A DNA stretch of 64,000 bases from Mimachlamys varia (lineage: Eukaryota > Mollusca > Bivalvia > Pectinida > Pectinidae): contig OX392542.1 in NCBI GenBank assembly GCA_947623455.1, positions 6,951,625-7,015,624 of the forward strand, in the 5' to 3' direction. The first letter of the stretch is position 1, and the number at the start of each line of letters is the position of its first letter. The translations under genes and the position numbers were made by a program. The notes below the pieces were generated by a model. It was not told where the DNA came from. It worked only from the letters and a program-made list of their open reading frames with translations, and searched no databases. Shown here piece by piece: positions 13,750 to 56,979 of the stretch.

Positions 13750-16700
13750 TCACACAAGGTATTTTTCGCAGATAACAGATATGCCTTCAGTGTTAGGGAC
13801 TCCATCCGTGTCTTGCCATTTGAATTCATGAGCTCTTCGAATGAGCAGGAAATTGAAGTGTGTTTTGTTCCTTGGCATACCGTCAAACCAGTTTAAGTAC
13901 GGCATTCGTGACCCATCATCAAATCTCCAAACTCCTTCTTCCAAAGTGTCATTGCCTTGGATGTGTGCCCGATCGTGATCTTCACCTGAAAAAAAATCAG
14001 AGAATACCTATATAAGCGTCAATTAAACCGTAATCCGAACTCTAAATCAATAAAACTAGAGGCAAAATATGAACAAAAGAATGGTTTATAAGGAAACCTT
14101 CGTAAAAGTACAAGAGAATAAGACCAAGTGTTCCGGAAGAGAAAGCGTTTTCTGCTTCATCGACGACGCCCACTATGTAAATCTTGTTCACATCCAAGTA
14201 ATAACCAAGTCCTCAAAATGAGAAACGAGTCGTCATTATCAATCACAATAAGTATACATACTACTGAGCATACACACAAAAACGTCCATCTTCATATCAC
14301 ACAAAGATATAGAATTATTCTCGATGAGAACATGATGACGACTATAAATCTTACACATAGTCTTCATCAACCTACATCTCCCGAATCCCTGTGCCGTAAG
14401 TTTGTTCGTCAGCAGCTGACATCTATCACGAAAATCTCAATATTCAGAGCAAGCACTAGAATAACGAAGCAACTGCGACATGTAAACGGCATACGTTTAT
14501 ATGGAGGCTAATCATATTCAGTAGATGACGTAACACACACATATGCTGCACTTCTTAAATTTAGTTATAATTACAGTATGCCGAAAAAATGAATTAAAAT
14601 GCATCATACAGCTGTTTCGTCCTCCTAGGACTCTTCATTGATGCTAAGGGCCAAAAGGTAGGAATCCAAAATTTCTAAACTAATGTAGAAGCAGAAGGGT
14701 CAGGTGCGTAAAACCCCTTTAATTTATGAATTAAGAAGTAAAATTAGACTGGTTCTGTATAATTTTAAATCTTGTACTACGAAAATGTAAATGTTATGTA
14801 CCGTGTCACTACTCAAATGAGATTAACTGTGGCTATGGCGGCTCCAGGAAACCTCGGGGACTAAAAAATCCACAAGCAGAGTCTGCCACCCCCTATCATA
14901 AATATGACGTAACACACACATATGCTGCACCTCTTAAATTTAGTAATAGATACAGTATGCCGAAACAATGAATTGAACTGCATCATACAGTAGACTATTT
15001 GTAAAGAGCTATTTAAAAGATTGCATTTACTTGTAACTTAGAAGGATATTGACGCGTTAAAAAGAATCATTGAGAATGTCGCCATAATCGAATCGAACAA
15101 TGGCAATGTCTCGAACAAAATTAAACACCTCATAATATCTATCGTTTAACCTTCATGCAACCTTTCTTTACATCAGAAGTTGGGCGTGGCATGGTGCTCA
15201 CCATATGTGTCACGGTTATCACGGTAACCACAGCTGGAGACAATACAGGAACAGAATCACATCGATTGGGCAATACCAATGCACCGAAAGTGTTTAGAAA
15301 TGGTAAATCGATTATTACAAAGCCTCATTTTATCAATATCAACAACCAATTGTTATTAACACAAACAACTAAAAACTTATTTTACATACTATCTGATGAA
15401 TGCAAGGTTAAGCTGTATATTTTGAATCCATAGTTCTTGAGCATCAGTGTTGTTGTATTGCCATAAAACGACAAACGATCAATTTTACATTGAAATACTT
15501 GAAGGAAGAATAGCGGTTTATTATTTGCGATATACTGATCAATATTCGTATGCAAATTACGATTGAGGAAGTAGAATGCACTTGGAGGCATAGTCCGCAA
15601 TCTCATTTAAACAAAGGACCTCTTTCACGAACAATGAAATTTTGCCCACGACCCGATTTAATCTTAACTAGGTGTCATATATAGCACCCTAGCATACTCC
15701 CCTGAAACAGTGTTTAAAAAATTCAAAAGGTCCATGGGGCCTGAATCATTAACTTCTTTGTGACGTTTAGTAGGGGTGTGAGATAAGGTTCAGAAATGGC
15801 TCCATAAAAAGAAAAGGAACTCTCATACAGAACTATATTACTTCTTATTACTTTTGACATTATTTGTCCCAATATGTTTGCTCAAAATAGTAAAAAAATG
15901 AAGAAAATTGGTAACCGGTAAATTTGTCATTCAGAACGATGCGTTCGAGAAGTCGGAATCTCAAAATTGGTGCCATAAAATTGATGTGGTTGTTTAATGA
16001 AAATCTTGCTTTTTTTGGTTTTTCAAATAATGATTTTGAAAGTTTAAATATGATTTTATAAAAAAGATGGCCTGTATCAGTTCCTTTACAGTAAGACCCT
16101 AAGCAAGTATTTAAAACGTGTGTGTATTGATCTTGCATTTTATGGACATCTGCTCAGTAGTTTTACACACTTCCGGTTCATATGCACATACTTCAATTAA
16201 ACATTACTTAAGGACATCACATTTTCTCAAAACAATTAAAGTGTCAAGAAATTGCTTGCCAGGTAAAATTGTCAATGAAAATAAGTCCGAATCTCGAAAT
16301 TGGCATATCAAAATAGATATGACAATTAATATTGAATTACATCAAGTGAGTTGTCATATTTTTGTTATCAATATAACCATGTACAGCCAAATCAGTGAAA
16401 TGACCAATAGATACACTAGTTATAAGTTGTTTTACTCTATATATACCGTAAAATAAATGCAAAAGTGATTTGTATGTTGGGTGTAATTCTAAAAACCTAA
16501 AAATCATCAATGGAGCAGTTGTGAAGATGCAAAGCTCCAAGAAATCAACGCAAAAATGCAGTGACCGTTATTGCATGGTCTTAAAAGACCTCCCTGACGA
16601 AGCACCACTAAAGTTCCCATCCTTAGTTATCGCTATCATTATGTTATTATGTGTTTATGGACGCACATCTTGATATCTTTATTTCGCATTCGGACATTAA

Positions 16701-19700
16701 TTACAATTGGACCATTACATAGTACATTGATTTTGTGTCAAACATGGGTGATGTTTGCATAATTCCAAGTTGTAAGACACGTTTTAAAGACTGTAGTAAG
16801 GATGGAAAATCACTAAGAAACTTAGAATCCCAGCAAAATTGTTGGCTGAAAAATGTTCTCAAGAAAGATGGGCTGTTTGTAGAAGATGGCAGTAAGATTT
16901 GCAAGAAATGTTACTCTCAATATCTGAAGAAAAGACCACATCCTGATGAGGATGTAGAGTTTGCTCAGGAAACCAATTCTTGTGATAGTTTGGTGGATAA
17001 TGCAATTGCTGTGAATTCACAAAACCAAACAAATATTTCCCCAATCCCATCCCTCCTAAATATTACCGATATCAAATATGGTTCATCTTCACATCGCAAA
17101 TGTTCTGTATGCTTACAGTATAATGATTCACGTGTTACTGTTCCGACCCCGTTCGTCATGTTTTACTGATAGAGAAAAAACTGTGGTGCTCTCCTGATGC
17201 ACGTATTTGCCCTGAACACCTGATTGGTAACTACCTGCACCCTGATACCGAGATATCTATGACCAATCGAACACCAATAGAAACTAAACTAGGGGACATA
17301 TCTGTGCAAGTCATCAATGATCTGTTTGAAATTATACATGAAGTTTCCAAAGATGGAATTTCACCAAAGCTACAGTTTGCAAATCTATCTGATACTGATT
17401 GCCATGCATGGACAGGTTGGACTTTAGAACAGTTTGAAGAAATTCATGATCTTTCAACTTTCTCTGCCTGTTCATTAGACATTCTGCTGTACTTCTGGAT
17501 AAAACTAAAAACTAATCTTTCATGGAAGCAGTTGACAATATTAACAAAATTGTCTGAAGCAACGCTTTCCAGATATTTCCACAAAGTTGTTGATGTTTTG
17601 AACACAACAGTTGTGCCAAAATATCTTGGAACAGCACATCGTTCACGTGAAGAAGCTAAATCACACAACACAGTATTTACAAATATATTAATTCTATGGC
17701 GATAATGTAAGTCTTATCCTAGATGGTACATACATTTATCTAAACAAAAGTAGTCATCATGAGTTTCAAAGGGCTTCTTATGGAGGACAGAAAAAATGCA
17801 ACTTTCTGAAATTCATGTCCATTGTGTTACCAGATGGGTATGTATTGGATACAATTGGTCCATATTATGGCAGCGTCAATGATGCTTCTATAAAAAAAAT
17901 GATTATGGAGAAATTCGATCTTCTAAGATGCTGGTTACATGAGAATGACCGTGGTTTCAGGGACGTGCTGAATATCTTTGCCCAGTTGGGATATGATGCT
18001 AAAATGCTATCTTTCCTTCCTCCTGGTAAGTCACAACTGGATCCCCAACAAGCTAATGATGATCGTTGCTGTACAAAGGTACGTTGGGTTGTTGAGTCCT
18101 ACCATGGAAGATTAAAGAATTGGTTACTATTCAAATCATCTTGTGACAATACTTGGGAAACTTGTACATATAGTTACAGCAAGCCTGAATGGTTTCAGAG
18201 GGCCCATATATGTTTCAGACCCCCAGCGTGAGCAGCGAGACATACAAATGGCAACTCGTATGGTGTCACCTTTGCAAAGGGATAATGTTCTTGCGAAACG
18301 GGTTGCAGATGATCCAAACATGACTCGCAGAGCCAAAAGTGAATGGCAAAAACTTGAAACAGCAAATATTACATTTCCTCAATTGAATCTTGAGTACCTT
18401 GAGACACTAGCATGTGGTATTTACCAGATCAAACTGTCCCCTGGTTACATTGTTGAGCACCAATCAAATGATGGTGACTATGAGATCTGGGTGTACCAGC
18501 ATGCTGAGGATCTTATTCGAGGTCAGATTCATTCACGTCACAAGTCGCAGACGAAGTATCATGTTTGGGTCCAGTTTGAAAACAATGAACCAGATGATCC
18601 CATCAAGGCGTATTACTGTCTTTGTCCTGCAGGGAAAAGAACATCTGGTATGTGTGCACATGTTGCATCAATGTTGTACTACCTGGGCTATTATATTCAT
18701 CAGGCAAATCCGAAAACTCTTCAGTCAGCCAGTCGTAAAATCAGAGATTCTGTGTTATGAAAAAGCGTAACTTAGTATCCAGTTATCAACTTCACTTGGG
18801 ATGAGGTAACAACAAAGCATTAATCCCTGTTGAAATCTTGGAAGACGTATATCTATATATGAGCTTAATGCATATAGTCTTGTTTTAAAGAACTGATTCC
18901 TACAGGCCCTCCGGGCCTCTTATTGTTCGTACAAATATGGTTTCATATATCATATTATATGTTTGTTCTGTCACTATCAATCTTTCATAACTTACAAAAC
19001 AAAAAAATGATAAGAAATTCATTAAAACCTCAATCCAATTTGATGACGCCAATTTTGAGATTCCGACTCCTCGAACATATCGTTCTGAATGACAAATTTA
19101 CCGGTTACCAATTTTCTTCATTTTTTTTTAATTTTTTGAGCAAACATATTGGGACAAATAATGTCAAAAGTATTTAGGTGCACCGGAACCGGAAGTGTGT
19201 GAAACTTAGCTCTGAAGACAGTACGTTGTTAAAAAATGAACAAAAAACACATTTTTTTTTGTATTTCATTGAACATAACTTTTTGCATATGTCAAATTTT
19301 TCCAGTTATGTTTGTTTGAAAAATCAAGCAGGTTCTTATGAACATAATAAGAAGTAATATGGTTCTGTATGAGAGTTCCTTTTCTTTTTATGGAGCCATT
19401 TCTGAACCTTATCTCACAACCCTACTAAACGTCACAAAGAAGTTAATAATTCAGGCCCCATGGACCTTTTGAATTTTTTAAACACTGTTTCAGGGGAGTA
19501 TGCTAGGGTGCTATATATGACACCTAGTTAAGATTAAATCGGGTCGTGGGCAAAATTTCATTGTTCGTGAAAGAGGTCCTTTCCCATGAAACATCGCTCA
19601 CAAAAGGAAAAAGAGAAAGCACAATGAAATATCCGATTTGGATCTTATATTTGTTTTTGCAATAATTGAACAAAAACATTTTTGAATGAAAGACCATGGA

Positions 19701-22700
19701 ATGCTTTAATATAGATTTCATGCTTAAGACACGCTTTCATTTATAACACCTACCTATCAGGTCCTCAACAACCATCTGCTTCATTTCGGAGTCGACTTTG
19801 ACAAGGTGCCCATTACTTTTCTCACAAATGTCGATACTGTCGTACACGGAATAAAGCCCCTTGGGATGGACCCAGTAGCACGCGCCAAGCTCTCGTACGT
19901 ACATACGACTGTCAGATGTCGGACAATCATCTACATAACAAACGTAACAAACTGTTAATGTCTTATAGATTCAGGGAAATGATCTTCTCAGATTATGCGA
20001 TGATGTTTGTGCGCTGTTATATCGTTTAAATAGTTGACATCCATATTTAATTTTATTCGTTAAACAAGTTCAAATTCCCTATTTTCAATTTTACGTCTTT
20101 CCTTTTATTGAACGATGCACATGGATACAACACCAAAATAACACAATCCGCGAGCATGAAGTGACAGTGGATGGAGTTTATAATGTTATTGATACCACAC
20201 CTACCATACAAAATGTGTTTTAGAATAAAAAGTTAGCATGGAATACAACAAAGGTGATATAACACACACATATGTCGCACCTCTTAAATTTAGTAATAGA
20301 TACAGTATGCCGAAAAAAGGAATTAAAATGCATCATACAGCTGTTTCGTCCTCCTAGGACTCTTCAGTTTTGCTAGGGGCCAAAAGGTATGAATCCAAAA
20401 TTTCTAAACTAATATAGAAACAGAAGGATCAGGTGCGTAAAACCCCTTTAATTTATAAATTTAGAAGTAAAATTAAACTAGTTCTGTATAATTTCAAATC
20501 TCGTACTACGAAAATGTGTATATTATGTACCGTGCCACTACTCAAATAAGATTAACTGTGGCTATGGAGGCTCCACATTCTATATGTGTAGATTACGTGC
20601 ATAGTTATTGATATATCTCATCAGCTATAGACATACCACATATATCAATACTAAATTATGTTTCTACATTTAAGTTATTTCAAAGATATCTATGCATGAA
20701 TTGATTTTCAACTTCATTACTTTAATACACATCTCTATGACCCTTACATTGTAATGAGGTATCATGGTTTTCTGCTAGGATCACTGTTACATCGTATTAA
20801 AAGATAACATATTTTGAAATTAAGATATCGATGTATACATACATTTTAAATCTGCCATACGAGTGAAATATATTTGATATTTATTGAGACAGCATTGAAT
20901 TTTCTTTTTATTTCATTTTCGAAATTCCGTACAGATTTCATTTTAAAAAATTGCGGTTACAACTGACCGAGACGGAGTGACTATGGCTTATGTAATATTC
21001 ATATACGCCGCAGGGTAAAGTTCTTTTTTAATATTTCAAAATATTATAAAAATTAAAAATACAAAAACATATTAATAAAACCCATTAGATATTTGTTAAT
21101 ATCCAAAATACTATTATAAAAGTTTTTAATTTCCTTACTTTATATGATTTGTTTCTAGAATAACGAAAACATAGTACACAAATAGTGCGCAATGATATCG
21201 GACCCAACCTTATATGATATAGGATCTCTTATATCATCATTAGTGATGATATAAGCAGTGATGATATAATATTTATCAAGTTGATATTTTCTGATATTTC
21301 ACTGGTAAAAATGTTATAAAAAGCTATCTATTTTCGTTGTCTGGGCATTGCTTGTATATGCTTTGCTGGCGTTCCAGAATGGTTCCTGACTTATTGTTAT
21401 GTAACAATATTTCAATATTTTGTAGATCGGGTAATCATTTACGGAATACTACCGTCAACCTAGACCACATTCCCTTCATGTTGCTTTAGAATGATTTTTT
21501 AGTATGATAAATGCTTATAGGAATTGTTTTTTCCGCCTTTTGGAAATTGAAAAATGTCTTTTATATACTCTGTAAGCTAATGAATGTAAAATGTTATAAC
21601 TGTAGTATAACAATAACATACATTTGTTCTGTAATATTCTTTATTTTTGAGCTATCGGCTGTTTATATGAAATTGCTTACTGACATATACAGACAGAATA
21701 TTGACGGATGAGCAAACTAGTAATCGTAATCACATAAACGCTTGATTCTACTAGAATCTAATCTATTCAAGGCGGTATTTGATGCGTTACATTGATAATT
21801 TGAACGGGCACACTGCTTATCTCTTACTGTTATTAGATATTGACTCTTCGAAAGCTCTTATATAACGTATTTCATTGTAATCAATACAAGATTTTAATTG
21901 CTGATTTGCAAGCATGATTGATTGATATTTCGGATGTAATTTCAGACAGGCATAATTGATCGAGGCTTGACTCTAGAGGTGTCAAACAATGATTGAAAAT
22001 GGAAATAGAATTCACATATAATATGTCGAAGGCAACTCATGTCGAAGAAACATACTTAAATAAAATATTATATAACTTAAAAAGATGTGTGTTTTTTTTT
22101 TAAAATAAATTATTGATAAAAAACTGGAACAAAATATTATGTATCACTGTTTTGAGCAAATATGTATAAATTACTCGACCCAAAAATATAGACTGATATC
22201 AATTGAACAATCTTGCTATGGTAGTGTTCACTTTAAAAACAATGGGTTATTATAATTCGTACTTTTCTATTTTCTCCGCGTTTTTATTCATAACAAATCA
22301 CATTGAAAGAGGCGTAGATAGCATGTTTGTGTACAGCGTGTTACTGTTTATCAGAAATCAGCAGATAGTCTACAGCTTAATTAATTGTGATACAATAAAT
22401 AACTCTCCATACATTGAATTAAAATACAAACCACTGAAAATGGAAATTTTAACAATGTGAAAATGTTTTTTTTTTGTGTATTTTATTTTGTAAATTGTGC
22501 TTTTTGCTGTCATTTCCTCCCAACAAACCCTGGCGTAAGAATCTTAACTGACATTTTCCCATTTCGACTAATTATCTTTTTCTCAGTATTAACATTGTCA
22601 TAACCTATGCATATACAGCTTTATGTCAAAGTTTTCAATACTCACATTATCGGTACTCAATGAATTACTCTTACTAACGCTCTTTACACCACATGGAATA

Positions 22701-23312: not shown

Positions 23313-24619
23313 CTCGGTATTCCAGTGGTTTTTGAAATGAATTGGTACATGGGCACATTAGATATTTGTTCGTATGCTCATTAATCTTTAACCATCGAAT
23401 GCTTGATGAGGCATTACATAAGTGTATTATAGATATTAATATCACACGTGCGTCTCTTTCCCTCTGCCTACCAATGTCATCTGTGTATGCGGAGTTGGAA
23501 CCACAAACTCTGATTGAAATGCATTATATGTTTCGTTCCAAATTGGTCGATAAAGCGGCTCATAAAACATTGTCGTACTTCAAGCACTTAATCCCATGTT
23601 TTAGATATTTTACATGGACGGGTTCCTCTTCGAAGTACTTGGGATGCTGCAGTGTAATTGTATGTGCACATACATATTTGATAGTTACACAGCACAGAGT
23701 AAGTCGTGTGTTTGGATTGGATGTTTGGATAATAATCATTCGCATTTACTTTGTTTTAGGTACAGGATAACAGTGTTAGCTTCCCTAATGGGTCGTTTAT
23801 TAATTCTAGGTATATAGGTACATGTACCAGCGACATGCCTCAATATACGATTTATTAATGAATGCAGGTGCCATATTGTTTTAAACTAAAACTGTCGAGG
23901 TTGTGCAAGAAAAAAAAACGTCTTTGATAGGCCATGACCGAAAATACTTTTGTCATATATTTACATTTTTTGCGGTTTTTTCTTCAAAAAAGTCATTGTT
24001 CTACATTGTGATTCAGATTTCGTACGAAGGCGTTTTTGTATACCGTCGATAATAAAGGGATATTACACCAAATGTAAATACAGGCTGCAGTTGATTTGAC
24101 GTAAGATTTATTTCTTGTCACTACACAGGTAGCCCCGTTGGTGTTGTGAGGTTAAATATCGTTAGTTATTGAGATGTCGTTGTTTTATTATTGCACAGAA
24201 ACTTGATATCAGTTGTAAGCTGTATGGTGCAGATTATTTCATTATTTGACACGTCTGTATCTCATTCTAAATTATAAAGGCTGTGTGTGTACAATCCCTG
24301 TAAGATGTAATGTTACAAGGAAATGAATTGGTATTCCATACACTCCATTTTATTGACCGATTGTATTCTATGGTAATGACGAGGCCCCGGAGGCACTGAA
24401 ATGTCCTATCATCGACCACCAACACTTCGCTCTTATTTGTTGCAAAAAAAATATTGAAACAGATGAATGATAAAAATAAATCTTGAACAACTTTGTTAAA
24501 CTGTTTAACACAACCAGTGTATTGTATACTACAAATTTGAAGACAATCGCCACATATCAGAATTAAATTCTTTTTTACTATTGTATTGTGTCTTGTTTTT
24601 AGAGGTGAAGATTGGAACT
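23313..24619. other. Upstream region of the lectin gene; no TATA box seen
   Basis: The minus-strand sequence just above the lectin ATG has no TATA-like element. The plus-strand frame at 23342-23770 shows no domain or export signal and is not called. The rest is AT-rich spacer. Confidence 0.4.
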
Positions 24620-24624
24620 GTTTG

Positions 24625-25725
24625 AACGGTTTGAGGGCTTGTTGTGTCGATGGTGGTTAGTGCTGATATTGGAGTTTGAGGGCTTGTTGTGTCGATGGGG
24701 GTTAGTGCTGATATTGGAGTTTGAGGGCTTGTTGTGTCGATGGGGGTTAGTGCTGATGTTGGAGTTTAAGGGCTTGTTGTGTCGATGGGGGTTAGTGCTG
24801 ATATTGGAGTTTGAGGGCTTGTTGTGTCGATGGGGGTTAGTGCTGATGTTGGAGTTTAAGGGCTTGTTATGTCGATGGGGGTTAGTGCTGATATTGGAGT
24901 TTGAGGGCTTGTTGTGTCGATGGGAGTTAGTGCTGATATTGGAGTTTGAGGGCTTGTTGTGTCGATGGGGGTTGGTGCTGATATTAGAGTTTGAGGGCTT
25001 GTTGTGTCGATGGGGGTTAGTGCTGATATTGGAGTTTGAGGGCTTGTTGTGTCGATGGGGGTTAGTGCTGATGTTGGAGTTTAAGGGCTTGTTGTGTCGA
25101 TGGGGGTTAGTGCTGATATTGGAGTTTGAGGGCTTGTTGTGTCGATGGGGGTTAGTGCTGATGTTGGAGTTTAAGGGCTTGTTATGTCGATGGGGGTTAG
25201 TGCTGATATTGGAGTTTGAGGGCTTGTTGTGTCGATGGGAGTTAGTGCTGATATTGGAGTTTGAGGGCTTGTTGTGTCGATGGGGGTTGGTGCTGATATT
25301 AGAGTTTGAGGGCTTGTTGTGTCGATGGGGGTTAGTGCTGATATTGGAGTTTGAGGGCTTGTCGTGTCGATGGGGGTTAGTGCTGATATTGGAGTTTGAA
25401 GGCTTGTTGTGTCGATAAGTATTAGTCCTGATATTAGAGCAAGAGGGCTTGTTGTGTCGATGGGGGTTAGTGCAGATATTGGAGTTTGAGGGCTTGTTGT
25501 GTCGATTGGGGTTAGTGCTAATATTAGAGCAAGAGGGCTTGTTGTGTCGATGGGGGTTAGTCCTGATATTGGAGTTTCAGGTCTTATTGTGTCGATGGGG
25601 GTTAGTGCTGATACTCGAGTTTAAGGGCTTGTTGTGTCGATGGGGGGTAGTGCTGATATTGGAGTTTGGGGGCTTGTTGTGTCGATAAGGGTTAGTGCTG
25701 ATATTGGAGTTTGAGGGCTTGTTAA
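24625..25725. repeat. 45-bp minisatellite, ~24 copies, with higher-order pattern
   Basis: Units of 45 bp contain gggcttgttgtgtcgatggg and ggttagtgctgatattggag. Variants (gatgttggagtttaag, gttatgtcg, gggagttag) recur in the same order, for example about 24780-25020 and 25095-25310, showing duplication of blocks of several units. Because 45 is a multiple of three, it yields a 268-residue open frame of 15-residue repeats (EFEGLLCRWGLVLIL), which I regard as non-coding. Confidence 0.95.
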
Positions 25726-30127: not shown

Positions 30128-33100
30128 TTACATTTTTGGAAGATCCAAACGTTTCAAAAGCAGATTATTGTATCCAATAACTGCAGTAAGAGATTCAAAA
30201 GATACAGAGGAGCCGATGTACCATATCCCATACCTTCCCTGTATGTCTAATATATCCCATAATATTCCATCAGCCATATCAGGAACCGAGTACCTTGAGA
30301 AATAATCCCAAACTACTTTCTTCTGTACTCCCACCAACTGAGCTTGCTCCACGCTGCTCACGTGATCCCGAAGCATTTGCTCAGCAGTTGCCTCATTAGG
30401 CCTTGCCTGCATCATCTGGTAATAGATGGACGATTGTAACTTCTTCCCATCAGTTCCACCTGGATAAATTCCACTCGAATAATTAGCACCAACGATATTA
30501 TTCAACGATGCATATGAATCTCGGAAACCCCAAACAAGATTGTCAATTTTGCTTTTAATGTTGTCGGCAAAGTAACCTGTGGGCGCCTCGCTGCGTCTGC
30601 CATAAGTCGTGTCAGCCAAAGTGGACAGGAAATAGTAGTGGAAGGACTTTTGAAACAAAGAATTTTCCTTTCGGTTAAATTTGATGATATTTGATAATGA
30701 TTTCATAAAAGGAGTCAAAATAAGAAAATCAAACCTTTCAAAGCGCCAGAAATTGCATTCTCTATAGATAACAATGAAGCCTCGTTTTGAACGTATAACC
30801 CCAAACACTGGGCTATTGAGTCTGATATCGAGGTTATTTTGTCTTTTCATCTCCTGCCACAGAAACTGAAATCCTTTGCTGAGAATTTTGATATTACTTT
30901 CCCCATTTTCATCCCTTTGTAGCAAGTTTGTAAGGAAGTTTGGTGTCAACCACATCATTGCGTACAAGGCCGATACTTCGTCCACGTGACCATATCCTTG
31001 CATAGTAGCAACAGGTAAAAAAATGGCTTTCAAGACTTCGATGTCATATTTACGTAAAAACTCCAAAAATGTCATGTTTGTAGCAGCGAGTTTCGCCCGA
31101 TTTGGACGAGGCATTAATAGTCCCTCGTATTGTCCAAATAAGGATCTATGTAGTTTAATGTATTTTTGAACTGCTGCCAGGAAATATGACCCCTCGGTAC
31201 CATTGGTCAGGTCAGGTTTGATCTTACGGGCTTCTATTGCGTAGTATTGGGGTAACGTTAGAGGCACTGGAAAAACAAGCAGATGATAGATAGTTATAGT
31301 AGCAATAGTTAATACAAAATAAAAATAATGCCGCATTTTAAGATTCCTACACAGCTTCGACTGATCAGATTTGCTTTAATCACACGAGACATCAAAGTAA
31401 GACTTTAACACTCAAGAGTACCTAAGCTATAACGTTTTCATCTTGCCTAACACTGTGAAGGGTATGTTAAAATGCATATTGCGTTTTCAATATATCTGCA
31501 ACATTGCAGACTCAATCTAAAACCACCCGTTACGTCTTCTTCAAAGATCACGTAGCACACACATATGCTACACCTCTTAAATTTAGTAACAGATACAGTA
31601 TGCCGAAAAAATGAATGAAACTGCATCATACAGCTTTTTCGTCCTCCTAGGACTCTTCAGTGATGCTAGGGGCCAAAAGGTAGGAATCAAAAAAGTCTAA
31701 ACTAATGTAGAAGCAGAAGGGTCAAGTGCGTAAAACCCCTTTAATTTATGAATTTAGAAGTAAAATTTAACTAGTTTTGTGTAATTTCAAATCGTGTACT
31801 ACGAAAATGTGTATATTATGTACCGTGCCACTATTCAAATGAGATTAACTGTGGCTATGGAGGCTCCAGCAAACCTCGGGGACTAAAAAATCCACCAGCA
31901 GAGTCTGCCACTCCCTATCATAAAGATCACGTAGCACACACATATGCTGCACTTTTTAAATTTAGAAATAGATACAGTATACCGAAAAAAAGAATTAAAC
32001 TGCATCATACAGCTGTTTCGTCCTCCTAGGACTCTTCAGTAATGCTAGGGGCCCTAATTCACTAAAAGTATATAAGACGTCGTCATCATTCCTTGAACAT
32101 AAAAGAGTATTTTTAACCATACTGGAGTACAGAGGAAACACTCTTGGTTTCGATTTTATACCCCACTTGCAACAGACCCTACAATGAACCGCTACAATTT
32201 ATGCCCCCCCCCCCACCCCGGGGTATCCACCCACGCACCCTACAATGAACAGCTACAATTTAGGTTCCTACTCACCTTTACCCCTTAGAGTATCCACCCA
32301 AGGAACCAATAATATACTGCTAAGATTTATGCTCCAACTTACCTTTACCCCCCCCTCCCTCCCTCCCCCCGATAATCCACCCATGCATCCTACAATATAC
32401 CGCTATGATTTATGTTCCTACTCACCTTTACCCCGGGGTATCCACCCATGCACCCTACAAAGAACCGCTACGATTTATGTTCCTACTCACCCCTCCGGGG
32501 TATCCACCCATGCACCTTATAAAGAACCGCTACAATTCATGTTCCCTACCCCCCCCCCCCCCCCCCCCCGGGGTATCCACCCATGCACCCTACAATAAAC
32601 CGCTATGATTTATGTTTCTACATTGTACTCATCTTTACCCTCCGAGTATCCACTTACATCCTTCTCATCTTTAACACCCTTCCACCAATATCCTACTCAC
32701 CTTTACCCCCCCCCATCCTGAGTACCCACCCACGCACCCTACAATATATCACTATGATTTATGTTCCTACTTACCTTTACCCCCCCCCCCCCCCATCCTG
32801 AGTACCCACCCACGCACCCTACAATATATCACTATGATTTATGTTCCTACTCACCTTTGCCCCTCGGAGTATCCACCCACATACTCGGGCCGGGCATAGG
32901 AAGAATATCCCCCGCGTCATGTTCACGAATCAGATCGTATATTTCCTCGTAGTCTGGGTGTGTGTAGCACGTGCCCATCTCGTGCGGAACGCCGCGGTGG
33001 TAGATTGTTCGCGATTTACCACCTACATCTCCTGATTTTTCAAGCACTACAACATTTTTAAATCCGGCTTTCTGTAAAAAAAAAAAATATAATCGTTCGT

Positions 33101-35585
33101 ATAATAAAAAAAAAATGGTGTTATGTGACGTTCTGAAGACTAGTACGCTATGTACCTGTCGAGGAGCCGTCAAACACAAACAAACAAACACATCATCAGA
33201 CAAATGACCAGCAAAGAGTATGCACCCCAAAGGTGTACATTGTGTACGAGTTGGTAACGACAAATCGGTCATTTCGTCTACGCTGTTACGGGTATAATAT
33301 AACTTGATTCAGGAAATCGGAGACCATGCCACACAGAAAAACATGTAATTGACTGCATAACCCACAAGTGTTGGATAGAAGCGGCATATAAAAGAAGCAA
33401 TCTGGATACGCCGCAGTGGGTTGGTTCTAAATCGGTACGAAGGGGCATTCAGTTGACTAAGTCTTAAACAAGGCGTAGATGAATCGAGTCATTTCGGTAT
33501 AATAAATATATACTATTGAAGTAAAAAAAACAGTCATAAAAACAAACATACCTTAAGTTTATAAGCCATATGAACACCTGATGGTCCTGCGCCAACAATG
33601 GCTATCTTGTCTTCCAAAGACTTTGGACCTTGGATTTGTGAAGACTGCTTCGCTACTTTCAGGACATGGACTGAAAGAAACGTAGATGTTGATTAATACA
33701 TGTATTGTGCATTAAAGTCAGTGAATATTAATGAAACGTTGATAGTTTCTTTCTGAAAAATATCATCCCTTAGTGTAAATGGTTAAAATAAATCAGTTTA
33801 TCAAGATCGTTCCTATTGCTGTACTGTTCAGACAAAAAGAGCAAGATGTTTTTCCATGAATGAATATATAACATTACAAACTTAATAATGAGAATTATCT
33901 CCCCTTTAGGAATGTCATCTGAATACCACTGTACTTTTCGAAAAATGTTCATAAGCATAACATACACTAACAGTAAGATAAACGCCTGTTGTTTTTTATA
34001 TAGTTTATCGTCTTTATAACAAGACCCCATAATGAATCGGGAATACGTCATAGGTAATTGTTGAATATATTTTCCCAATAAGAAATAAATAAAGTAAATA
34101 AATAATTAGTATTAACGTTCAGGATGATGCATTACTTGGCAGGCTTGGTCGATGAAGTAGAAAACACCTATCAACATCTGGTCGTATTTTTTTCTGGTTA
34201 TTTATGTGAAGTGTGACATATGCTTACCTAGTAAGGGATCGTTACCTTGCGGCTTCGCCTGTCCTCTGCAATCCTTTAAAAGTCAATGTGACACAGTCTA
34301 TGAACATATATTAGCTGATGCCAGGGGTAATTTAAATAAAAATGAACCACATGTTTTGGTTGGAAATGAAGGTAAATAGGTTTTGATCACCTTTAAAATT
34401 TAGTAATAGATAAGTATGAATTAAACTGCATCATACAACTGTTTCTTCCTTTTTTGACTCGTCAGTGATGCTAGGGCCCAAACTAATGTACTGTAGAAAC
34501 AGAAGGGTCAGGTGCGTAACACCCCTTAAATTTCTGAGTTTAGAAAATGGATACAATTAGTACTGTATAATTTCAAATCCTTTACTTCGAAAATGTGTGT
34601 AATATGTACCGTGCAACTACTCAAATGAGATAAATGTGGCTAAAGAGGCTTCAGCAAACCTCAGGTATTAGACCCCACAAGCAGAGTCTGCCACCCCATC
34701 GTCTTACCCAAGTGAATCACAATCAATATAAATCCATTACTTCCGGTGGTTATGATAGGTCATATGTATTGAATTATACATTCTGTGCGAGGACACTGTA
34801 TTGTACGAAGGCTGAGCCCAAGGTCAAATGTTGGAAAGTAACTTGTAATAAAAAAAAGGAAAAAAAAGAGAAAAAAAAAATAACATTAAAAAGCAAACAC
34901 TTTCATTTATTTTCTTCTCGCTAGAGGTCCTACAAGGGATCTTTCTATCAAAAACTATAAACAGAACTAGCAAGACAAATCTTCATTATCATTTATCAAC
35001 TCAATATCTTTACATTGTTGATGTGTAAGGACGAAACAGCTGCATGGTGCAGTTCGTTTTAAGGCATAATTTATCAATAACAAAATCTAAAACTTGCAAC
35101 ATGTGTGTTAAATCATCTGTCTACCATTTACTGTCAGTTTTAATGCAATATCTTTAATAATTTTCTACTGCTGTTGGACAAACGACATCATAATTAATCA
35201 TCCTCAGTTGGCATATATATATATAAATATCAACAACAGCTGTTTCTCATTTTGATATCAACTTGTAAGACTTGACTACGCCATTATTTACTCAGTGTAT
35301 TATACAATATATTTTGTGCAGTTTCCATGTTTCAAATAATTATAATATGTGAATATAAAGGGTAGAACATTAATATGATACTTTGATATTTTCACATATT
35401 TTGCTGTCAAGAAATTATTCTTACTTGTAGTGTTTCAACATGACTCGAAAATTGTTTAACATTAATGATAAAAACAATTACTATAATTATTATTACACCA
35501 GTGAAATTAAATGTTACACAAAAGGTTTCTTATTTACCTGTAAGACAGTAAGTAACAGCAGTGCTACTTTCCATATCCCCATCAT
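30128..35585 (-). CDS. Secreted FAD-dependent oxidoreductase A (5 exons)
   Basis: Exons: 35538-35585, 34228-34273, 33552-33670, 32855-33071, 30128-31266; intron phases 0,1,0,1; 522 residues. Exon 1 encodes a signal peptide (MMGIWKVALLLLTVLQ). Residues ~52-63 form the Rossmann dinucleotide-binding motif (DKIAIVGAGPSG), followed by VVVLEKSGDVGGKSRT and the RGVPHEMGTCY loop. The C-terminus has the flavin-contacting motif IWYIGSSVSFES. This is the flavin amine oxidase/phytoene desaturase fold; substrate is unknown, though the VPHEMGT-type sequence is reminiscent of polyenoic fatty acid isomerase-like proteins. No C-terminal membrane anchor is present. Sequons NMT and NYS are shared in position with paralogue B, supporting secretion. 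The donor of exon 4 abuts a minisatellite derived from that exon end, and introns 1 and 4 contain hammerhead repeats in sense orientation. Confidence 0.85.
31623..31666 (-). ncRNA. Hammerhead ribozyme copy 3 (stem III weakened)
   Basis: The minus strand has GCATCA, CTGAAGA, GTCC/GGAC, GAA and TGATGC, all intact. The stem III strand is AAAGCTGT rather than ACAGCTGT, so the second of its two base pairs is lost. Activity is uncertain. Confidence 0.8.
32002..32045 (-). ncRNA. Hammerhead ribozyme copy 4 (all core residues intact)
   Basis: Minus strand, 5' to 3': stem I GCATTA, box 1 CTGAAGA, stem II GTCC with loop TAGGA and GGAC, box 2 GAA, minimal stem III AC-AGCT-GT, cleavage nucleotide A, then stem I TGATGC (one U-G wobble). 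This is a type I hammerhead with 2-bp stem III and a GUA cleavage triplet, expected cut between 32008 and 32007. It is transcribed as part of intron 4 of oxidoreductase A. Confidence 0.85.
32170..32872. repeat. C-rich ~65-bp minisatellite including copies of the exon 4 splice donor
   Basis: About ten irregular units contain caccctacaat, gctacgatttatgttcctac, tcacctttacccc and ggtatccaccca. The rightmost unit is the real end of exon 4 of oxidoreductase A with its donor. On the minus strand units read GGGTGGATAC, then GGGTAAAG|GTGAGTAGG. Poly-C runs up to about 20 have expanded inside several units (32203-32220, 32549-32570, 32780-32793). Overlapping Pro-rich frames are artefacts. Confidence 0.9.
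34385..34700 (-). mobile_element. Hammerhead repeat unit in oxidoreductase A intron 1 (diverged)
   Basis: The phrases atttagtaatagata, gtgatgctaggg and gaagggtcaggtgcgtaa match the family. The unit is more diverged than the others and carries small deletions. It is in sense orientation relative to the host gene. Confidence 0.75.
34428..34471 (-). ncRNA. Hammerhead ribozyme copy 5 (stem II degraded)
   Basis: Box 1 reads CTGACGA, which is still allowed because position 7 is free. GAA, stem III ACAGTTGT and stem I GCATCA/TGATGC are present, with stem III closing AC/GT intact. Stem II has decayed to GTC...GGA with an A-rich loop, so folding is doubtful. Confidence 0.65.
35022..35080 (+). repeat. 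Small hammerhead repeat remnant
   Basis: aaggacgaaacagctgcatg, followed by gtgcagttcg, matches the 3' half of the ribozyme and adjoining unit sequence. Box 1 and half of stem II are missing. Confidence 0.5.
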
Positions 35586-35621: not shown

Positions 35622-35744
35622 AGGATCTATTGTTTAGCCGGATGTGTTTGTATGGAAGCACATATCGGGACATTCTAAATAATATAATCCATCAGACCTA
35701 CGTTGTTGTTTCATGAATGAATGCCTATCGTTAAATGCTCACCT

Positions 35745-35872
35745 TTTGGCCTCTAGCATCATTGAAGAGTCCTAGGAGGACGAAACAACTGTATGGTGCT
35801 GTTTAATTCATGTTTCGGCATACTGTATCTATTACTAGATTTAAAATGTGCAGCATATATGTGTGTAAATAA
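35745..35872 (+). mobile_element. Partial hammerhead repeat upstream of oxidoreductase A
   Basis: The plus strand carries cctctagcatcattgaagag and continues to gtgcagcatatatgtgtg. Only about 130 bp of the unit remain. It lies about 160 bp above the start codon of oxidoreductase A and in the opposite direction. Confidence 0.75.
35756..35799 (+). ncRNA. Hammerhead ribozyme copy 6 (core mutated)
   Basis: GCATCA, stem II GTCC/GGAC, GAA and ACAACTGT are present, but box 1 reads TTGAAGA, replacing the invariant C3. Stem I pairs with TGGTGC through a wobble. Expected inactive. Confidence 0.7.
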
Positions 35873-39635: not shown

Positions 39636-39639
39636 TAAT

Positions 39640-39960
39640 GGAGCCTCCATAGCCATAGTTAATCTAATTTGATTTGCGTGGTACATAATATACACATTTT
39701 CGTAGAACACGATTTGAAATTATACAGAACTAGTTTAATTTTACTTCTTAATTCGTAAAGCAAAATGGTTTAATGCACCTGAACCTTCTGCTTCTACATT
39801 AGTTTAGAAATTTTGGATTCCCACCTTTTTGCCCATATCATCACTGAAGAGGACAAAACAGCTGTATGGTGTAGTTTTATTCATTTTTTCGGCATACTGT
39901 ATCTATTACCAAATTAAAAGGTGCAGCATATATGTATGTTACGTCATCCTTACTACATTA
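39640..39960 (+). mobile_element. Hammerhead repeat unit, intergenic
   Basis: The plus strand matches the family from ggagcctccatagcc to gtgcagcatatatgtatg. It is nearly full length but its ribozyme is deleted in the middle. It lies between the two oxidoreductase genes, opposite to their direction. Confidence 0.8.
39835..39873 (+). ncRNA. Hammerhead ribozyme copy 7 (stem II deleted)
   Basis: CTGAAGAG is followed directly by GACAAAACAGCTGTA. About ten bases forming one strand and the loop of stem II are missing, and the GAA box reads AAA. Inactive. Confidence 0.65.
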
Positions 39961-40789: not shown

Positions 40790-43700
40790 TTATATTCCGT
40801 CACCACAAGAAGATTGTCTGAGTAGCAAGTTATTGTACTCGACTACACTCTTAACGGACTCAAAACTCACAGAGGATCCAATATACCATATATCATGTTT
40901 CCCCTGTTTTTCAAATATATCCCATAATATCCCTGATGCCATATCCGAGACAGAATATCTTGGAAAGTAACTCCACTTCATTCTAGACTTTATTTTCAAT
41001 TTGGTTGATTGTTCTACTTTATAGATATGGTCCTTTAATTTTTCTCCGAGCGTTTTCGGAGTCGGTTTTTGTTTTGAAAACTGATAATAGACAGATGACT
41101 GTACGTATTCTCCATCAGGACCATCGGGAAACACCCTGTTAGTATAGTTATCTCCCATTATGTAATTAAGAGAGGAATATGAATCTCTATGTACCCACAC
41201 AGAGTTATCCTCCTTCTTGTTCATGTTAAACGCGTAGTAATCTTGGGGAGACCTACCCCTGTTTACTCCATAGTCAGTATCCGCCAATGTTGTCGTGTAG
41301 TAATATTTGAATGTCCTTTTAAAAAGTTCCCGCACATCAGGATCAAATTTGATAACATTCGACATAAACCTCATCGTCGGACTTGTTATAATGAAATCAA
41401 AAAAATCTGTATGGGGTTTATCGCAATCGTCATAAAATGATACACTAAATCCTTTTTTCAGAGTAACCACCTTCTTCACTCTACTTGATAGTTTGACATT
41501 TATGTTAGTCTGTCTTACTATTTCCTCCCACAAAAACTGAAATCCTTTGCTTAGAATTTTCACTACACTCTTTACTTCCGGTAATGGCGGTGTTACGATT
41601 TCCTCAAGGAAACTTGGTGTCATCCACATCATTCCATAAAGGGTGGATATTTCATCCATGTGACCATATCCTTGTGCGGTCATGGCACTCATAAACATCC
41701 CTTTAAGTGGTTCTATATCATGGACCTTGAGAAAGTCAAGAAAGGTCATGTTGACCCTTGACAGTGTAGCGTCACAGGGACGTGGCATCAGTTCCCCCTG
41801 ATAGACCCCGAACATCTCGTTGTGGAGTGCTACATATTTACGGACTGCTTGCTTTAGAATGCCAGCTGCTACAGTCGTGTTGGTAATATCTGGACGAAGC
41901 CCCATCAGGACACGGATGCTGTTTTCTAAACTCGATATGGGTACTGCAAAACAAAAGTTCATAATATAGCAAATATTATAAGTACTGATAAAATGAATAG
42001 TTCTTGCTGACTTTTAATAATTTCAATTCAACAATAAACAAAACGACTTTAGGTTTGATTATTACGGAAGCCTGTTCCATTGTTGAATATATTTTATCTG
42101 ACGGCCGCCAATTAATTATCTGACGACCGCCAATTAATTATAGCTGACGGCCGCCAATTAATTATCTGACGGCCGCCAATTAATTATAGCTGACGGCCGC
42201 CAATTAATTAAAGCTGACGGCCGCCAATTAATTATCTGACGACCGCCAATTAATTATAGCTGACCTGACAGCCGCCAATTAATTATAGCTGACGGCCGCC
42301 AATTAATTATCTGACGACCGCCAATTAACTATAGCTGACGGCCGCCAATTAATAAAACTGACGGCCGCCAATTAATTATAGCTGACGGCCGCCAATTAAT
42401 TATCTTACGGCAGCTTATTAATTATCTGACGGTCGCCAATTAATTATCTGACGGCCGCCAATTAATTATAGCTGACGGCCGCCAATTAATTATCTGATGG
42501 CCGCCAATTAATTATCTTACGGCCGCCAATTAAATATCTGACTGCGGCCAATTAATTATCTGACGGCCGCCAATTAAAAATCTGACAGCCGCCAATTAAC
42601 TATCTGGCGGCCGCAAATTAACTTTCGTCTGTGTACTATAAACCGAATAGCGTTAATGTCCTGTCAAATGTAACGGTGGTTTCAAAACGACGTGAATGTT
42701 AAGAAAAAACTTTTATCTAACGACTTTGGGATTAATTTGTGACAATATTCATGCTTAAAAGCGTAAACCAAAACTTAAATAACGTTTAGCTTTGATCAAG
42801 CTCCATCATACCTGATCAATTAGTATATATCTTACTATGATAACCTTCAAAATTTAATCTCAGATGTAAAATTTAATGTAGTTATATGTTTCTCCCGCAA
42901 TAAAAAGTACAATATTTAATTGTATAAAACTTCATGTGTATTATGCAGATATGTGTTCGAATAGAAACTGCAATGCCTTGAATTGCCCCTATCACATGTT
43001 TATATAGGTAACCAACATATAAAGTCCAATTTGCATGGTACACCATACATATGCAATGTTTCATTCAAAAGCATCGTTAATGATACGTTGCAAATATATG
43101 TTGTATTCGTCCCGAGACTATTGATACTGGTGTTTACTTAATTTTGCCATGTAAAAGTAAGGGAAGGTGTTGGTAATTTTTTTCGAATTTCCATAGTCCT
43201 GTACCTTGTATCCTTATTATAAAATTACTATGAAAGTTAAGGCAATAAACCTGACACATGAAGCGGAGTCTTAAACCAATTTTGTAGGTGAGTGTTTGGG
43301 TGGGGGTAATCTTGAATGGAAATGTTTCCTGCTGAATATGTTTTGTTACACCGGTCACGTGTCCGTGTCAACGTTCCGGGGGTAATCGCGTCTAAAACGT
43401 GATGTACCTGTCTCTATTGACGCATTAGGCATGTCAACGTGAGAATGTTGTTAGGTTGGTTTTGCACATGATTATGTAATACCATTGCGGAAAAACTGAA
43501 CTCGAATTACGTAACAGTAAGGTATGTACTAGGGCCGTGGTTATCACGTTTATATTTCATTGTCAAATGTATGTACTAGAATAACCTCGTGTTTCCCCTG
43601 AAGTAGGAGAGAGATATATAATATACATTTCCTTTCTGAGATTCTGAACGAAATAAATTATATTTGGAAATACTTCCATATTTTGCCACTCATATAATAT

Positions 43701-46700
43701 TATCTGGACACAATACCCCACTAACTTACAGGAGTTGTATGGTTGTATATCCTGCCTACAATGGTATATACATATGTAAACAGAAACTTATGTACATTAC
43801 AACGCGGACTCCATGCCAATCATATCATTTGCCAAAAACACAATGAGAAATAGTCAACGTCTTTCTGATTGTAGCAACCGAACAAACTCTGCAGATGCAA
43901 ACTTCGTCTTTCGTTATTGGTACTTAATTGATGTATCTTGATATATCTATTGATTTATTTCTCAAGCGAGTTATTTCCCTTGAGCTTTTTCCGGAATATT
44001 TTAAATTTTCGCTTAATTATATTTGCTCAAAACCCTAGACCAAGTCCAATTAGTATGATTTAGTCCCTAGAATAATACAATACTGTTCAAAACATTGTAG
44101 AATAATACAATACTGTTCAAAACATTGTAGAATAATACAATACTGTTCAAAACATTGTAGAATAATACAATACTGTTCAAAACATTGTAGAATAATACAA
44201 TACTGTTCAAAACATTGTAGAATAATACAATACTGTACAAAACATTGCTTACACTTCACAACAGCCCATTCATAAAACAAAACTGTCCATGATAACTCCA
44301 GTTCCCCAGAGAGTCCAATTGACCAGTTTTTGTCACTAAAATATGTAAATAACGTATAACATACTGCCTACTCTTCATATTCCGCAACCTTACAACAGAC
44401 AAAAGCCTGCTGATAGGGATAATCGAACACATTTAACAAAATAACTTTAACCGCAGGCCACCAACAATCAGAACACATTACACTTTATATAAACGGCGAA
44501 ATCTCATACAAGACAATATTGTATGATCCAACGTTTTTAACACTGTCAGGAAAAAAACAGGCCAAACAACTTTACCCCAGTGAAGTGAGATACCGACACC
44601 TTGGCGACTACATTAGATCCCTTTTCTCCGAATAGACAAGATCATGCAAATATTTAAAAGTTAAACTATGTAGAAATGTTAAAATCGCTAAAAATCTAAA
44701 AGAAATAAAGTGAGTGTACAACATACATCTTTAGTTGTTTACCTATAATTGTATGATGTTTAAATACCCATTGACATTATGTTCATATTGTATAACCTAC
44801 TTGGATTATTCTCGTTAACCCAGACTGTTGGACTGGGCATGGGAAGGATTTGTCCAGCGTTGAACTCGTTGACCAGTCTGTAGATCTCGGTATAGTCCGG
44901 TTGTGTATACACGGTACCCATCTCGTGCGGAACACCCCTGTGGTACACAGTCCTCGACTTTCCACCAATGTAACGGTTCTTTTCAAATACAGTCACGTTC
45001 GTGTAACCATCTTTCTGGAAAGATCACATCACAGTTTCGTTAATGATAACGTTTATTTGAAATGCATTTATTTACTATACTGCAGAGGTGGATGGGTGTT
45101 GTTGTTCAGGAATTACATATTTATTCAGATTTGTAATATATTTTCATTATTTTGTTTTTGTTAATGGTAATTAATACAATACAACTCCACTTGTGTCGAA
45201 ATGACTTAACACACAGATATAATTATCCAAGATTTTTCGCCCTCAAACATTCTCAATCAGGATTTTGACAGTGATAATCTGATTGCCAGTTGCAAAAGAT
45301 CACCAGGACCCGATTGCAGATCATATGCATGCGGACAGAAACGAAACGACAATGGATCTGTATTTCAGTCGGATTAAAGAGTATCAATAGTCCTACACAC
45401 AATGAATGTTACAATTAACATAACCAGCGTTATGACACGTAACGACAAATGCTGTTACTGTTTATTATATTAAACAAAACAGAGCGTCTAGTTCAGCAAG
45501 TGAAGATACTGGTAAGCCTATAACAGGCACAACTAATCCAATTACGTGGCTTCTTATGTCAAATAAAAATGACTAAGCAGCATACATGTATTCAAGCAGC
45601 TAAGTGATAAGTCTCACTGGCTGAGAAACACAAAATGTTCTCAGAGTTACTCATGATGAATACGCACGAAAGTCACATCGCGTCTGTTTATATAACTATA
45701 ATTCTTTGTTACATCAATGGCAATTTGGCTGTTTTGATTCAAAGACATGCATTGTGTAGACTGTAAGCCTCTTAAGGGTATTAAACCGACATAAAAACCT
45801 TGCAACATTGTTACAGAAAAGTACTTGTTACACTTATGTCAGTCGGTATAGAATGTAGTAATCTAGCTTCTGCTTATCATCAAAAGATTAAACCCTCATA
45901 GTCTAGAGTTAATGAAAATAGTAAGAGTGTTCCAACTATATCCTGGATATCACATACTGTTAACATTTTCATTTCAGAACAAGTACATTTTATATGACAT
46001 CAGTTTCAAACGTTATCGTTTTTATAATTGAATGCGTCAAGAAAACATGAAATTGGAAACAATATGCAATGACTGTACTTAGTGATGATTGAACAATGTG
46101 TTTCAAGGGACAATTTATAGAAGTTCCTTATGTTTCACAATATTGCCAAATATTGCATTAAAATGTAGTTATGTACTCATTTGACCTCAAGAGCATGCGC
46201 AAACCTGTCTCTTGGATGCAAATGAAAATGACTTCCAAACCCAAGTGTAGAGCTATCAAGACGGCTACACTGATCTCTGAACGTTTCAAACGTACAATCT
46301 GTTTATGGTTGTTTACAGGACACGCATTTGCACTGTTCATTTGTTCGCGCCTGGGTGCGCGGTTATTTCGCGCTACATTTTATGTCGCCATTTTTGGTGC
46401 GGGTTTTTCCAATAATTGTTATAGATTTTACCTACATGGTTTATAATTATCAAGTACTCACACATGCATATTCCATTCTAGTTAATTTTAATAAAAACTT
46501 GTGTCGACTAAATTGTCCCTTTAATACGTGAAAAAAAATGTTTAAGATATATACGCCTACATTATTAAAGTTCTTTGTTATTGCAATAATGCGGAATTAA
46601 TCATTTTTACTACATAATGCATTTGATTTTCCTTAACTATACACATCAGCTATATTTTGCACCATTTACTAGTGAAATGGACTATTGCACGGCTAAAATG

Positions 46701-56790: not shown

Positions 56791-56979
56791 TGATTATAAA
56801 TATCTTGTTTGGAAGTTCGTTTTGAAGTTAGATACCGGCAATAAATAACATAGTACTTTAAGAACTGACATTTCGTACTAAACAAACATTTCTGATAAAT
56901 TTTTGTACTGTTTCATGTAAATATTTCAGAAACATATATAATATATCGAATATTAAACACTTTTTAACGTCCATCCACT

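Follow-up and report, generated by a model that had tools for sequence, protein, structure and literature searches.

An intronic copy of a dispersed hammerhead-bearing family in the scallop Mimachlamys varia, best fitted by the metazoan retrozymes

Two hammerhead ribozymes lie 379 bp apart within an intron of the scallop Mimachlamys varia, and the arrangement raises the question of what kind of element carries them, how it might be moved and whether it serves the gene in which it sits. The window, i.e., the whole stretch of 64,000 nucleotides analyzed here, belongs to contig C16 of the 975 Mb assembly that we searched. The element occupies positions 31543..32053 on the minus strand (5' end at 32053, 3' end at 31543) and is composed of an upstream terminal repeat (repeat A, 31922..32053, minus), an internal part of 247 nt (31675..31921, minus) and a downstream terminal repeat (repeat B, 31543..31674, minus). 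Direct-repeat comparison gave 132 nt for each repeat, 92% identity and a spacing of 379, which bears out the preliminary description of two ribozyme copies 379 bp apart around one unit. The same span was found again by the genome search (locus L001). The GC content is 37%, the list of open reading frames contains none of at least 110 aa overlapping 31543-32053, and a 379-bp unit is far too short to code for a reverse transcriptase (RT). The repeat and the motif had been described correctly, while the minus strand and seven further copies in the window had been missed.

Hammerhead A (32002-32045, minus, cut predicted by script at 32008/32007) and hammerhead B (31623-31666, minus, predicted cut 31629/31628) are both of type I (Hammerhead_1, RF00163), with the core CUGANGA ... 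GAA, A15.1-U16.1, H17 and stems I and II, and each keeps 12 of the 12 scored core positions. Hammerhead A has the stem I and stem II ascribed to it earlier (six pairs including one G-U, and four or five pairs, respectively), and all its core positions match as claimed. In hammerhead B stems I and II are perfect and the sole lesion is a C to A change at 15.2, in stem III. The statement that one ribozyme was intact holds for A, which has intact core and stem III, but B also has a complete core, and the contrast between an intact and a broken copy is overstated. This type of stem III, GAAAAAGCUGUA, was seen in 3 of the 59 ribozymes of our first genome sample, the window's own included, and may be a subfamily variant rather than a private lesion. 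The covariance model scored A at 29.7 bits (E-value 3.7e-5 for the 801 nt searched, 0.0029 for the whole window) and B at 21.9 bits (0.014 and 1.1). The gathering score of 34 bits was reached by no hammerhead of the window (best 29.7), which taken alone would count against the preliminary description by its own wording, the absence of a model hit above threshold having been named there as refuting it. A strict descriptor, requiring the core motif (which we take to be the hammerhead consensus), stem II and at least five of the six stem I pairs, matched only hammerheads A and B in the window, and found nothing in any of 300 dinucleotide-shuffled windows. The hammerhead observation is confirmed as real.

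The host gene spans 30128..33677 (minus), with exons at 33677-33552, 33083-32855 and 31266-30128; the tblastn matches behind them run over 33677-33552, 33083-32856 and 31267-30131. Translation of 30128-31336 (minus) gives a product that shares 86% identity with a polyenoic fatty acid isomerase-like protein of Mizuhopecten yessoensis. The intron that carries the element (31267..32854, minus) is 1,588 bp long, with donor GTGAGT and acceptor TTTTCCAG. From the exon positions and the GT and AG splice sites it follows that the element is intronic, as had been claimed, and in the sense of the gene, both being on the minus strand. A C-rich tandem repeat with a period of ~65-80 bp (32176-32863) fills much of the same intron, directly upstream of the element. 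There is also a paralogous second isomerase-like gene at 40790-47422 (minus), whose exon matches (47422-47336, 45020-44814 and 41944-40814) have 48-83% identity to the same relative.

A combination of blastn and profile searches raised the number of dispersed copies in the window to eight, in both orientations. Copy C (14523..14990, minus) has a ribozyme at 14601-14644 with C3 changed to A (RF00163, 29.1 bits) and copy D (20249..20575, minus) one at 20330-20373 with an intact core and a broken stem I (19.3 bits). Copy E (39639..39953, plus) has lost stem II by deletion, and copy F (34388..34697, minus) keeps the 12 core letters with a damaged stem II (16.9 bits). Copy G (35741..35865, plus), with C3 changed to U in its ribozyme at 35756-35799 (25.4 bits), is alone among the window copies in having an A-rich 3' end. 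Finally, copy H (35028..35108, plus) is truncated within the ribozyme and copy I (24217..24288, plus) is short and diverged. Although most individual copies have lesions, a perfect hammerhead emerges when the majority letter is taken at each position of their alignment. The clustering of the eight 3' ends was reached in none of 200,000 random draws. Copies D (20575) and E (39639) begin at the identical base of the element. Four arbitrary 10-kb stretches of the genome contained no copies, indicating that the window is locally rich.

Beyond the window, members of the family are found on many contigs; their flanks are unrelated, whereas the 3' end is common to them. Searches of the genome gave at least 47 matches to a 504-nt query (best 40 of 7390 first-look candidates scored), at least 40 to a 148-nt query (best 40 of 2116) and at least 41 to an 86-nt query (best 40 of 1537); these counts are lower bounds and the first-look candidates are unconfirmed as copies. 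The window element shares 92-95% identity with the other matches listed for the 504-nt query. These values, together with the 8% difference between repeats A and B, indicate that the intronic insertion is not recent. An exact match to the ribozyme was absent from viral contigs.

Copy ends were read in the window, in the four arbitrary stretches and at 60 genome loci. After exclusion of 12 duplicates of counted copies and three chains that were short or close to a sequence end, 68 distinct copies were left, each 60 bp or longer. The genome loci are the best-scoring places for the 504- and 148-nt queries, and the sample is thus biased to long, well-kept copies. Lengths ranged from 75 to 1055 bp; at least two ribozymes were present in 26 of the 68 copies and three in four of them. 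In 58 of the 68, the 3' end fell 83-93 nt past the last hammerhead cut, with a mode at 86-87 nt (86 nt in the intronic element, 31543..31628, minus); the remaining ten ended 58, 70 (two copies), 72, 73, 76, 99, 202, 299 and 334 nt past it. The 5' ends, on the other hand, were scattered across the unit. Such a pattern, in which the 3' end is constant and the 5' end is not, points to reverse transcription from one start on the RNA with variable stops, and the family is a non-coding, 3'-anchored, 5'-truncated retroelement. Copies longer than one unit would require a multimeric or circular template.

We also considered whether the 5' ends fall at the ribozyme cut. Two of the eight window copies start within 6 nt of it (chance 0.029), among them copy C, at most 5 nt away and with a possible 7-nt duplication, but the 68-copy sample, biased as it is to long matches, gives no support, with one such end against 2.3 expected, and the idea was rejected. 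Four genome copies (L036, L040, L050 and L062) start 134 nt past the upstream cut, three of them independently since L036 and L040 have duplicated flanks; such recurrent starts, like the one shared by copies D and E, are perhaps a preferred stop of the RT or a start of transcription. Target-site duplications barely exceed the control overall. Of 31 copies, three had one of at least 8 nt, where the control averaged 0.2, and two of these three share duplicated flanks; in a second sample there were 2 of 38 (control 0.38), the same two duplicated-flank copies. The 3' ends of the genome copies listed lack a regular tail of poly(A) or short repeats.

In the genome sample we counted 88 ribozymes with up to seven substitutions from the majority. 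The core is intact in 68 of them, accompanied by a six-pair stem I and a stem II of at least four pairs in 56, and by a palindromic stem III as well in 46; 26 of the 88 are identical to the majority 44-mer. The conservation of the ribozyme does not significantly exceed that of the remainder. Changes amounted to 4/132 in the ribozyme vs. 46/795 in the rest (p 0.135), with p values of 0.30 and 0.41 when more copies were used. Selection on the ribozyme was rejected as an explanation, the comparison being favorable with the 3' flank only and non-significant once the internal part was counted. Two-sided covariation in the hammerhead was absent from the ten window rows, and among 40 unique 44-mers the changes were almost all one-sided.

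Folding predictions indicate that a single ribozyme is not the preferred form. The 44-nt ribozyme A alone is predicted to misfold at -11.4 kcal/mol, vs. -5.6 to -7.1 for the hammerhead. With two strands, the best fold is a double hammerhead joined by ACAGCUGU for A with A, C with C and the majority 44-mer with itself, so that the palindromic stem III suggests, as far as these models go, dimer-dependent cutting. Among the six full-length 44-nt copies of the window, only A and C are predicted to pair with themselves preferentially as double hammerheads; with B, F and G another homodimer is favored, and copy D pairs without stem I. The double hammerhead of A and B has one mismatch and is predicted at -24.9, vs. 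-28.9 for the best alternative. As the lesion of B falls in the catalytic strand, A as catalytic strand and B as cut strand could still pair, with the stem I G-U as the only irregularity. In whole transcripts the predicted ensembles contain about 0 hammerhead for the window element and at most 1.4% for a copy with three intact ribozymes (about 0 for the double form), which implies that co-transcriptional folding or a protein would be needed. The unit as a circle is 56% paired (z -1.1), and 24 of 200 shuffles folded equally well. A conserved hairpin between the cut strand and the 3' end, predicted from the alignment with three two-sided changes, was rejected because it fails single-copy folding: five copies folded individually gave z from -1.0 to +1.4, no stabler than shuffles.

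Which known group fits this family best? Cervera and de la Pena (2020; PMC7229834) describe non-LTR retrozymes of metazoans with the same type I ribozyme, low GC, non-coding partial tandem repeats and many dispersed copies, and in mussels a family of ~5000 hammerheads whose repeats measure 350-390 bp, to be compared with 379 here, a likeness of described structure. Metazoan retrozymes have type I hammerheads, units of about 150-450 bp arranged as anything from dimers to multimers, and a GC below 50%, and the scallop family agrees with them in these points. They are further characterized by highly self-paired units and by target-site duplications, when present, longer than 4 bp, and are expressed as linear and circular unit-length RNA. 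The differences are the palindromic stem III and the fixed 3' end 86 nt past the cut found here; moreover, RNA circles and cleavage were shown in that work, whereas both are putative in the scallop. The axolotl retrozymes treated there have, like ours, a short stem III, in repeats of 330-350 nt, and cleave better or only as dimers, a form that is predicted here; the sampled scallop copies, from a mollusc and mostly dispersed and of one to two units, are unlike the repeats of newts and salamanders. Plant LTR retrozymes, as outlined in PMC7761336, are likewise non-coding and have a ribozyme in each terminal repeat, but of type III, in elements of 600-1000 bp with low, variable 4-bp duplications, in contrast to the type I and 379 bp found here. 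Penelope-like elements with pseudo-LTRs (e.g., PAc, PMC11167929) share the weak-stem-III hammerhead and the partial tandem repeats, and the scallop unit departs from an autonomous element of that kind in having neither RT nor GIY-YIG frame. The metazoan retrozyme/Penelope-type hammerhead class is supported as the best fit, in agreement with the retroelement class first proposed, by the type I ribozyme, the 379-bp partial tandem, the 37% GC, the dispersal and the retroelement-like ends. Publications on scallop hammerheads were absent from the matches listed by a search with little coverage of subscription journals, as was the term 'hammerhead ribozyme' from the matches listed for bivalves and oysters. 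The scallop family is new; its class, the metazoan non-LTR retrozymes, is already known.

As to the enzyme that mobilizes metazoan retrozymes, PMC7229834 does not decide; Penelope-like elements are called there 'a strong candidate' and LINEs are kept as possible movers. In the Penelope-like element of the anole (PMC11167929) the most frequent start of reverse transcription is found 111-118 bp into the ORF, and the hammerhead cut at 26 bp. By our own subtraction, for this one element, the start is 85-92 nt past the cut, vs. the 83-93 nt from cut to 3' end found here; a fixed internal start at such a distance is matched in the scallop, judged by genomic 3' ends (58/68). The anole start is an AC-rich stem loop with two start sites, whereas the scallop 3' end is GU-rich and mostly a single position. 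In the same study ribozyme mutants still inserted, reads ending at the cut were absent, and cleavage by the anole hammerhead required protein.

The host genome has at least 56 matches to GIY-YIG (best 150 of 241 candidates scored). An RT and a GIY-YIG domain in one reading frame are the mark of Penelope-like elements, and both (RVT_1 and GIY-YIG, one frame) are found in one 4,972-bp unit (L065, C17:52600-58300) of a tandem array that lies close to the beginning of contig C17. It has no real sequence likeness to the scallop retrozyme. A hammerhead-like stretch lies between its ORFs (L065:1690-1729, plus), with a 5-bp stem I, CUGAUGA with one extra A, a 3-bp stem II, GAA, the palindromic ACUAGU and an A at the cut; Rfam did not report it at E-values up to 1, and its best single-strand fold is not a hammerhead. 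The unit contains an additional upstream ORF of 318 aa. In a second GIY-YIG-bearing frame (L066, 570 aa) we saw no motif resembling a hammerhead and no resemblance to the scallop retrozyme. By hand count over contigs of known length and contig starts, at least 28 of the at least 56 matches are within 100 kb of a contig end, and some form head-to-tail arrays (e.g., G000:C17:23627-68103), one with a 4,972-bp spacing and a 300-nt overlap that is 100% identical. These arrays are probably tandem, end-of-chromosome Penelope-like elements with endonuclease. The link of the retrozyme to Penelope-like elements is thus geometric and circumstantial, drawn from one published element.

We can propose how the family may spread. 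Repeats of the 379-nt unit would be transcribed by read-through as partial multimers, and two hammerheads, of the same RNA or of separate RNAs, would pair through the self-complementary stem III ACAGCUGU. The double hammerhead would cut after CUGUA and release unit-length RNAs; according to PMC7761336, Penelope-like elements have minimal hammerheads for which cutting in dimeric form may apply. An RT acting in trans would start ~86 nt 3' of the cut and copy upstream for a variable distance, a process that would leave the fixed 3' and scattered 5' ends observed. Geometry and co-occurrence make a Penelope-like element the most likely source of the mobilizing enzyme, although taken alone we give this part only an even chance. 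The explanation as a whole, i.e., a scallop family of metazoan non-LTR retrozymes with dimer cutting and RT in trans, of which the intron holds an old copy, seems to us quite likely. The intronic copy itself is one insertion, not recent, with some predicted ribozyme potential left and probably without host function; it bears no mark of domestication.

The main competitor is an ordinary SINE-like element that would depend on a LINE for its movement, its hammerhead being a mere trimmer of transcripts or a passenger. LINE machinery also yields fixed 3' ends and 5' truncation, and PMC7229834 retains LINEs as possible movers; yet the 3' ends listed are free of regular poly(A) or short-repeat tails, A-rich only in window copy G, partial tandem copies with a hammerhead are traits of Penelope and retrozymes, and the 86-nt spacing agrees with the Penelope start. 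We consider this origin unlikely. Far less probable is that the intronic ribozyme has been domesticated to affect the processing of the host gene. The sense orientation and the intact core would suit such a role, and conserved intronic hammerheads are known in amniotes (PMC6155905), but this is one among many dispersed copies, its ribozyme gives no sign of selection, hammerhead B is damaged and hammerhead A has a G-U.

Direct repeats 379 bp apart, and three ribozymes in 4/68 copies, could also come from a tandem satellite or a local duplication, the hammerhead being a relic or due to chance. Since copies are dispersed on many contigs, differ in their flanks, which are unrelated, and agree in the 3' end instead of having a random phase, we judge this more improbable still. 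Lowest of all we place a chance resemblance to the hammerhead, a reading favored by the Rfam scores below gathering and the lack of covariation; it is contradicted by the shuffled windows, 0/300 of which matched the descriptor, and by a family majority that pairs better than the copy first reported and is reproduced exactly by 26/88 ribozymes of the genome sample.

Within the retrozyme explanation that we prefer, a more tentative idea, to which we give somewhat less than an even chance, is that retrozymes and Penelope-like elements share an RNA module, consisting of the hammerhead and, ~86 nt past its cut, an internal RT start. The palindromic stem III would delay cutting until a multimeric transcript or a second RNA is present, and cutting would then leave the start module with a clean 5' end a short distance upstream. 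If true, Penelope-type enzymes would be the movers of metazoan retrozymes, so far only proposed in the papers cited. What goes beyond the routine here is the fixed 3' end and its agreement with the published Penelope start site; the locus itself is an ordinary old intronic copy. With a multi-copy family in a mollusc, a measurable distance from cut to 3' end and a genome that contains RT with GIY-YIG, the question of the enzyme becomes directly testable.

The window has other repetitive features as well. A DDE transposase-like gene in pieces lies at 16735-18770 (plus), in neighboring ORFs with HTH_Tnp_4 (below the cut-off) and DDE_Tnp_4 (above it). Large tandem arrays are found at 1049-1602 (period 39 bp), 24629-25723 (45 bp), 42091-42621 (22 bp), 48792-49629 (20 bp) and 56979-59606, the last with a period of 28 bp and ~94 copies.
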